DNA from: Candidatus Gastranaerophilales bacterium
Lineage (GTDB): Bacteria; Cyanobacteriota; Vampirovibrionia; Gastranaerophilales; Gastranaerophilaceae
DNA length: 64,000 bases
Direction of reading: 5' to 3'
Assembly: GCA_947624325.1 (NCBI GenBank)
Contig: CANQJT010000007.1
Coordinates: forward strand, 1 to 64,000
The notes beneath the pieces were generated by a model. It did no database searches. It was not told the origin of the DNA and worked only from the letters and a program-made list of their open reading frames with translations. The position numbers and the translations under genes were made by a program. This document shows positions 34,985 through 35,442 of this stretch, piece after piece. Position 1 is the stretch's first letter. The number at the start of each line of letters is the position of its first letter.

Positions 34985-35368
34985 ATGTTAAAATTATAGT
35001 ATCGGGACGTGGCGCAGACAAATTTTGCGTAGGCTGAAGCGAAGCGAAATGCCGAAGTAACACCGAAATAGCGAACGACTTTTGCGAAGCAAATAGTGAG
35101 CGACTTGAAGTTGTGAAGCAATAATTTGTAACTGTTGCAAAAATCGGGACGTGGCGCAGCCTGACTCTGCCGACGAGAAAGATACGGTGTATCTTTTGAG
35201 GATAGGTAGCACGTAGTGCGCTTCAGGCTCGATAATATGAAAATTAAATACAAAATCGGGACGTGGCGCAGCCTGACTCTGCCGACGAGAAAGATACGGT
35301 GTATCTTTTGAGGAGAGGTAGCACGTAGTGCGCTTCAGGCTCGATAATATGAAAATTAAATACAAAAT
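34985..35368 (+). repeat. Array of three truncated tRNA-Pro 5' fragments with inserts
   Basis: The 15-nt tRNA start CGGGACGTGGCGCAG at 35003-35017 begins a 142-bp unit. A 19-nt start recurs at 35145-35163 and 35257-35275, each heading a 112-bp unit that is nearly identical to the next, and the intact tRNA follows at exactly the same period. The 142-bp insert carries GCGAAGC mini-hairpins. The 112-bp inserts carry an AAAGATAC/GTATCTTT stem and end in an inverted copy of part of the tRNA. Reading frames through this stretch are by-products of the repeats. Confidence 0.9.
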
Positions 35369-35442
35369 CGGGACGTGGCGCAGCCTGGTAGCGCACTACC
35401 TTGGGGTGGTAGGGGTCGCAAGTTCAAATCTTGTCGTTCCGA
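35369..35442 (+). tRNA. tRNA-Pro (anticodon GGG)
   Basis: The cloverleaf is complete: acceptor CGGGACG/CGTTCCG with one G-U pair, D stem GCGC/GCGC, anticodon stem CTACC/GGTAG with loop TTGGGGT, T arm GCAAG-TTCAAAT-CTTGT and discriminator A. Positions 34-36 read GGG. No CCA is encoded. Fragments of this same tRNA flank it on both sides. Confidence 0.95.

Follow-up and report, generated by a model that had tools for sequence, protein, structure and literature searches.

Single-copy tRNA genes are essential. MITE and REP palindromic repeats are short, non-coding, hairpin-forming sequences that are dispersed in many copies and show nested insertions, and the Gastranaerophilaceae are non-photosynthetic relatives of the Cyanobacteria that are common in animal guts. 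Among the elements that use tRNA genes as targets, Islander tRNA/tmRNA tyrosine-integrase islands split the gene that they enter; the target is rebuilt whole, a displaced fragment is left at the outer end and tandem arrays are possible, with the 3' fragment displaced in 3760 of 3919 tDNA islands as against 159 (PMC4383910). Dada DNA transposons are eukaryotic, kilobase-sized and transposase-encoding; they target tRNA and other small RNA genes, interrupt the tRNA gene near the anticodon with a 6-7 bp target-site duplication, and include non-autonomous derivatives and tandem insertions (PMC3706591). Casposons are kilobase elements with Cas1, PolB and terminal inverted repeats that insert at the 3' end only of tRNA genes, with a target-site duplication and with the tRNA unaltered (PMC4046053).

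The window considered here, the whole stretch of 64,000 nucleotides that was analysed from an uncultured gut bacterium of the Candidatus Gastranaerophilales, contains a tRNA-Pro(GGG) gene flanked on both sides by ladders of truncated copies of its own ends (Table 1).

Ladders at the proline tRNA genes

Exact matches to the tRNA-Pro(GGG) start, CGGGACGTGGCGCAG, are present at 35003, 35145, 35257 and 35369, and the three truncated copies are 15, 19 and 19 nt long, which confirms the ladder of 5' ends reported in the original prediction. The repeated starts are thus as described there, but the last three spacings, given as 112 bp, are two of 112 bp and one of 142 bp. The ladder sequence also supports the proposal of a small structured element lodged in the D-arm of a truncated copy, with one copy of the tRNA kept whole. 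That every rung is a separate insertion is not supported, since the two 112-bp units are 99% identical to each other and the sister species G010 has just one; this step looks like a tandem duplication of the unit. The promoter-like site directly outside the outermost fragment is a consensus match alone, with the chance expectation in the region about equal; given this site, the ladder would fall within the tRNA transcript. Boxes resembling -35 and -10 sequences are likewise found outside other ladders.

A mirror-image ladder follows the gene (35443-35723) and is absent from the earlier account. The final 18 nt of tRNA-Pro(GGG) (CAAATCTTGTCGTTCCGA) are repeated twice downstream with a period of 132 bp, and the two 3' units are 98% identical. 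The phenomenon is therefore not confined to the 5' end, as had been supposed, and mirror-image 3' ladders are of similar frequency.

The second ladder of the window precedes tRNA-Pro(UGG) and contains both of the upstream inserts seen at Pro(GGG), each behind the 5' end of the UGG tRNA itself (GGGATGTAGCGCAGCTTG at Pro(UGG) vs GGGACGTGGCGCAGCCTG at Pro(GGG)). The type B insert is also present at Pro-CGG, as at Pro-UGG, behind the gene's own 5' end, such that the GGG, UGG and CGG genes have inserts in common and 5' ends each of their own. Plain tandem duplication of a single locus is ruled out, because the same inserts occur at other tRNAs with other ends, and the expectation that the inserts would sit upstream of other tRNA genes with a copy of the local tRNA end is borne out here and in related genomes. 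Two tandem repeats reported by TRF, of 111 bp (59540-59781) and 33 bp (55953-56044), are unrelated to the ladders.

Table 1. Coordinates of the features that make up the proline tRNA ladders of the window.
Feature	Position	Strand	Evidence or remark
Promoter-like site TTGAAA-17-TAAAAT, directly outside outermost fragment	34966..34994	+	consensus match
tRNA-Pro 5'-end copy 1, 15 nt	35003..35017	+	sequence match
Type B insert (ACAAATTTTGCGTAGGC...)	35018..35144	+	142-nt unit with fragment
tRNA-Pro 5'-end copy 2, 19 nt, ends in D-loop	35145..35163	+	
Type A hairpin core, unit 1, ACTCTGCCGACGAG...GAGGATAGG	35164..35206	+	
Unit 1 tail: tRNA continuation, stretch complementary to tRNA fragment, TTGANAAYTNAATA-like leader	35207..35256	+	
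tRNA-Pro 5'-end copy 3, 19 nt	35257..35275	+	
Type A hairpin core, unit 2	35276..35318	+	
Unit 2 tail and leader	35319..35368	+	
Intact tRNA-Pro(GGG)	35369..35442	+	ARAGORN; Rfam RF00005, 58.6 bits
3' ladder unit 1, 132 nt; tRNA 3'-end copy at 35557-35574	35443..35574	+	
3' ladder unit 2, 132 nt; tRNA 3'-end copy at 35689-35706	35575..35706	+	
Outer partial repeat of stretch after tRNA 3' end (TTTTTTTGTTGTT...)	35707..35723	+	
Intact tRNA-Pro(UGG), second ladder	6138..6211	-	
Type A unit, 112 nt; core 6262-6304, fragment 6305-6323 (UGG tRNA's own 5' end)	6212..6323	-	
Type B unit, 143 nt, with tRNA-Pro(UGG) 5'-end copy (1 mismatch)	6324..6466	-	

End copies at other tRNA genes

The host genome is 1.98 Mb and 98.9% complete, in an assembly without 16S. 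Its 42 tRNA matches were fetched with their flanks, and the 41 distinct genes were scored for copies of their ends in an 11-nt window, one mismatch being allowed. All 31 end copies lie on the correct outer side and none on the wrong side, a pattern that is far beyond chance: 18 are 5' ends upstream (Thr-GGT, Pro-UGG, Pro-CGG, Pro-GGG, Val-GAC, Leu-CAG and Leu-GAG) and 13 are 3' ends downstream (Phe, Met, Arg-UCU, Gly-CCC, Ser-CGA, Leu-CAG, Leu-GAG and Pro-GGG), with no 5' end downstream and no 3' end upstream at any of the 41. End copies accompany 12 of these genes, about a quarter. In 286 tRNA instances of the loci examined (duplicates included) there are no wrong-side or distant end copies, save where a neighbouring intact tRNA provides the match.

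The association was also examined from the insert side, by searching 84,980 genomes with a pattern for the type A core that contains no tRNA sequence; at least 108 stretches matched. The matches listed include 131 cores, of which 101 have a sense tRNA within 500 nt downstream and 4 an antisense tRNA; 25 run off the contig, because repeats break assemblies. Among the same matches, 105 of the 106 cores with enough flank directly adjoin a tRNA gene on its outer side; 101 of them precede the 5' end and 4 follow the 3' end in antisense orientation. The sole core away from a tRNA looks like a chance match, and none has a tRNA solely on the wrong side. The cores usually stand after a piece of the adjacent tRNA's own end. 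A dispersed repeat independent of tRNAs is ruled out by this tRNA-blind search, and the inserts are not, as the original prediction had allowed for, widespread away from tRNA genes.

The core is restricted to the Gastranaerophilales among the matches listed, in relatives named Candidatus Gastranaerophilales or Melainabacteria. In the host genome the core motif occurs 28 times (1 for the reversed control), including antisense matches in the tRNA-Phe 3' copies and an antisense match at 5S. The strict core is present in 61 of the 146 genomes of the order, all in one family (reversed control, 0), and in other families of the order four loci have ladders with different inserts. No related DNA was found in phage, plasmid and viral collections.

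Structure and folding of the units

Read from the outside inwards, each unit begins with 7-20 nt copied from the end of the gene itself, continues with a compact hairpin insert and closes with an AT-rich stretch that leads into the intact gene; the units range from 76 to 260 bp. The type A core is a 41-45-nt hairpin within the 112-bp insert (ACTCTGCCGACGAG-stem-CGAGGAGAGG) with the ends ACTCTGCCG and GAGAGG. Its full layout is a tRNA 5' fragment, ACTCTGCCGA(C)GAG, a variable stem and loop, (CGAG)GAGAGG, a tail, a TTGANAAYTNAATA-like leader and then the next copy or the intact tRNA. Inserts on the 5' side enter at tRNA nucleotide 7-8, 11-12 or 18-20. Where the type A core stands on the 3' side (Phe, Met, Lys, Arg and Thr), it runs antisense and its entry point is about 11 nt from the gene end, and an antisense core is also present in a 5S rRNA copy; the polarity is always gene-ward, with sense cores ahead of the 5' end and antisense cores behind the 3' end. 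The 5S example lies within a partial 5S rRNA copy adjoining a 5S gene (locus L277, 10188-10393, and one further locus).

Units on the 3' side mostly carry inserts other than type A. Type D (GAGCAGAGGCTGNANTGNCG...) is a 3'-side family found in T-loop copies behind Ser, Leu, Gly and Ala tRNAs, and 8 of its 9 matches in a pattern search of 97 genomes are near a tRNA. A second core type (AAGGACTCC...stem...GGAG) occupies the same tRNA position at four loci and has apical hairpin alleles in common with type A.

The variable stems of the core stay paired through many compensatory changes; four stem positions of the 39-mers show several pair types and are at least 96% paired, and the outer conserved part of the core is fixed by the search pattern, such that its pairing proves nothing. 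The tail includes inverted copies of the tRNA end and is tuned to the local tRNA. Swapping the fragment for that of an isoacceptor weakens the fold in 83 of 107 units, with a full-fold mean of -34.9 kcal/mol for a unit's own fragment and -32.9 kcal/mol after the swap, a difference of 2 kcal/mol (p about 1e-10, for units that are not independent). Pairing of at least 4 bp between fragment and tail is somewhat enriched, at 98 of 107 units vs 75% in shuffles. Shuffled tails contain the second hairpin of the supposed fold at least as often, and a strict three-way junction for all units was dropped for this reason. The strand bias in folding stability reflects partly composition plus the core.

The copied stretch starts near the mature 5' end: comparison of the outermost with the next 5' copy gives an identity of 0.93-1.0 over the first 11 nt, of which the first 9 were favoured by the search, and of 0.83 at -1, 0.73 at -2 and about 0.56 at -3, positions that are free of that bias. 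This boundary fits target-end copying during insertion, or selection on the fragment. The truncated copies are more conserved than the adjoining leaders, even between tandem units, a hint that they are functional or subject to gene conversion and not simply dead duplicates. The length of the direct repeats varies from 11 to about 33 nt, which rules out a fixed-stagger transposase. Where the promoter is far away, TTGANAAYTNAATA lies directly before the mature tRNA (in the leaders of Val-GAC, Pro, Leu, Arg-ACG and Tyr tRNAs), a motif that we take to resemble boxA antitermination sites.

Turnover between related genomes

Relatives differ in the number and presence of units, as the original prediction had anticipated. 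Val-GAC has four tandem units and Gly-CCC two in this genome, and both have none in four congeners; Phe has two here, none in G010 with the same upstream flank, and one in G006. At Pro-GGG, two 112-bp and two 3' units are present here and one of each in G010, where a further partial 3' repeat follows the 3' unit. Units are gained and lost between sister species, and the array is not a fixed ancient one without size variation.

Cores and tails are reassorted. Pro-CGG and Leu-CAG have an identical core followed by unrelated tails, units side by side at Leu-CAG are nearly identical in the tail and differ in the core, and the Pro-GGG units of this genome and of G010 differ in the core as a block. 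From these sequence comparisons, it appears to be the core, and not the tail, that moves or is exchanged. At Thr, Leu-GAG and Pro-CGG of four congeners there is a version of the core that is longer by about 100 nt (CGCTTTAGTCG...GCCGTCCAGCT), and a different palindrome of about 99 bp (GAATTTTGC...GCAAAATTC) is nested in the Pro-GGG type A core of G021 and G018 (L053 and L054, compared with L048).

Candidate enzymes and RNA families

The 98.9% complete genome contains no match to the Y1 (HUH) transposase family (PF01797), which rules out IS200/IS605 and RAYT/REP elements. Its single reverse transcriptase (RVT_1, 297 aa, G000:C2:14609-15169) is retron-like, with strong matches to retron-type RT models in PADLOC, and the Rfam scan of the array shows no group II intron RNA; a retroelement or retrohoming origin is rejected on these grounds. 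With Rfam 15 and E values up to 5, only the tRNA itself lies above the cut-off at 34900-35800 of the window, and a self-cleaving ribozyme, a T-box or another known RNA family is thus ruled out. Tyrosine recombinases are present in the genome, none of them tied to the units, and the units are too small to encode Cas1 and PolB. No autonomous relative of the units was found within the loci examined.

Ordinary integrases adjoin Leu-CAG and a tRNA-fMet fragment in this genome. The fMet fragment, with two type A units upstream, lies beside a 422-aa integrase gene (G000:C2:223208-224290) and is probably the end of an island that carried the ladder along.

Origin of the ladders

The reading that we prefer, and to which we give about even weight, is that the units are small non-coding, non-autonomous mobile elements specific for tRNA and 5S rRNA genes, with target-end copying. 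It is favoured by the same insert families at many tRNAs, the local end that is always copied, the inward polarity and the turnover at the level of species. We infer that the original step was an insertion event. A plausible scenario is that an insert would enter the D-arm, or the T-arm from the other side, about 7-20 nt inside the gene, and that the event would copy the sequence lying between approximately the mature end and the point of entry, with the gene rebuilt whole on the inner side and the truncated copy displaced outwards. Recombination or slippage between whole units could then make the arrays longer or shorter. The hairpin core would be the part that moves or is exchanged and, encoding nothing, would have to use an enzyme supplied elsewhere. 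Several observations count against mobile elements: neither an enzyme nor an autonomous relative was found, nor any single insertion whose filled and empty sites align cleanly, the genome lacks the Y1 transposase and its one reverse transcriptase is retron-like, the truncated copies are better conserved than the leaders, the variable direct repeats are unlike a fixed target-site duplication, and the tuning of the tail to the local tRNA does not suit a simple cut-and-paste insert.

The units could instead be functional modules of the pre-tRNA, with an outer promoter and tRNA-like folds (the core hairpin, and the fragment paired to its complementary stretch) that play a cis role in processing, antitermination or feedback, and a number tuned by tandem duplication. 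Such a role would suit the promoter-like sites outside the arrays, the conservation of fragments above leaders, the complementarity of tails to the local tRNA, the compensatory changes in core stems and the presumably boxA-like TTGANAAYTNAATA before the inner tRNA, but type A cores that follow the gene run antisense to the transcript, the same tRNAs lack units in sister species, the second hairpin is not above shuffled tails and the strand-stability bias is partly compositional; we regard it as unlikely, though the strongest of the alternatives. Somewhat less probable is an origin in replication errors, in which the ends of tRNA genes (quasi-palindromes) are duplicated in tandem through template switching or unequal exchange, and gene conversion spreads hairpin-rich filler from copy to copy. 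Tandem units of 98-100% identity that differ in number, tails with inverted copies of the tRNA end, and direct repeats of variable length are all consistent with such errors, as is the 5' extent at Val, which fits an 8-nt microhomology (CACATTGA). They would not readily account for conserved insert families that recur across tRNAs and genera with fixed polarity and entry points, and no end copy without an insert is present among the units compared.

Displaced fragments beside a rebuilt tRNA are a hallmark of tDNA islands (PMC4383910), and the same feature is seen here in a genome with ordinary integrases beside Leu-CAG and the tRNA-fMet fragment. Successive tyrosine-integrase islands might have integrated, rebuilt the tRNA and been deleted, leaving displaced end fragments as scars. 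We consider this very improbable: the units, at 76-260 bp, contain no integrase gene, no larger insert lies between an end copy and its tRNA within the loci examined, islands nearly always displace the 3' fragment where both sides are used here, and one insert with a different local end at each tRNA misfits a fixed attP.

Within the mobile-element reading, a more specific version, which we put forward tentatively and rather doubt, is that of a new class of element whose insertion copies the end of the entered tRNA and acquires a tail complementary to that end, such that one hairpin core colonises any structured-RNA gene from either side, facing inwards and with no damage to the gene. What guides the choice of target may be the folded (cloverleaf) structure and not the sequence. 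If essential tRNA genes are indeed entered from either end by an element of about 100 bp that leaves them whole, this would be a new way of targeting genes safely, and the enzyme that moves such units could prove to be a compact insertion system directed by structure; if the units are functional instead, they would represent a new layer of tRNA control. The Gastranaerophilaceae provide natural filled and empty pairs for comparison.

Relationship to described elements

We found no description of such arrays in the open-access literature, nor of an element that copies the end of any tRNA gene entered, uses both ends with inward polarity and lacks coding capacity. Islander islands resemble the units in the split and rebuilt target, the displaced outer fragment and the potential for tandem arrays, and differ in that the units here are about 100 bp without integrase or cargo, use both gene ends about equally, and include one insert family that fits many tRNAs with the local end copied each time. 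Like MITE and REP repeats the units are short, non-coding, hairpin-forming, dispersed, multicopy and nested, but they lie strictly at tRNA and 5S ends with target-end copying, in a genome without the Y1 transposase. Dada transposons share the choice of tRNA and other small RNA genes, the non-autonomous derivatives and the tandem insertions, and are set apart by their eukaryotic hosts, kilobase size, transposase, short target-site duplication and interruption of the gene. Casposons likewise insert at tRNA gene ends with target-site duplication and an unaltered tRNA, and differ in their size, Cas1, PolB and terminal inverted repeats and in their use of the 3' end only; target choice is all that Dada and casposons have in common with the units described here.
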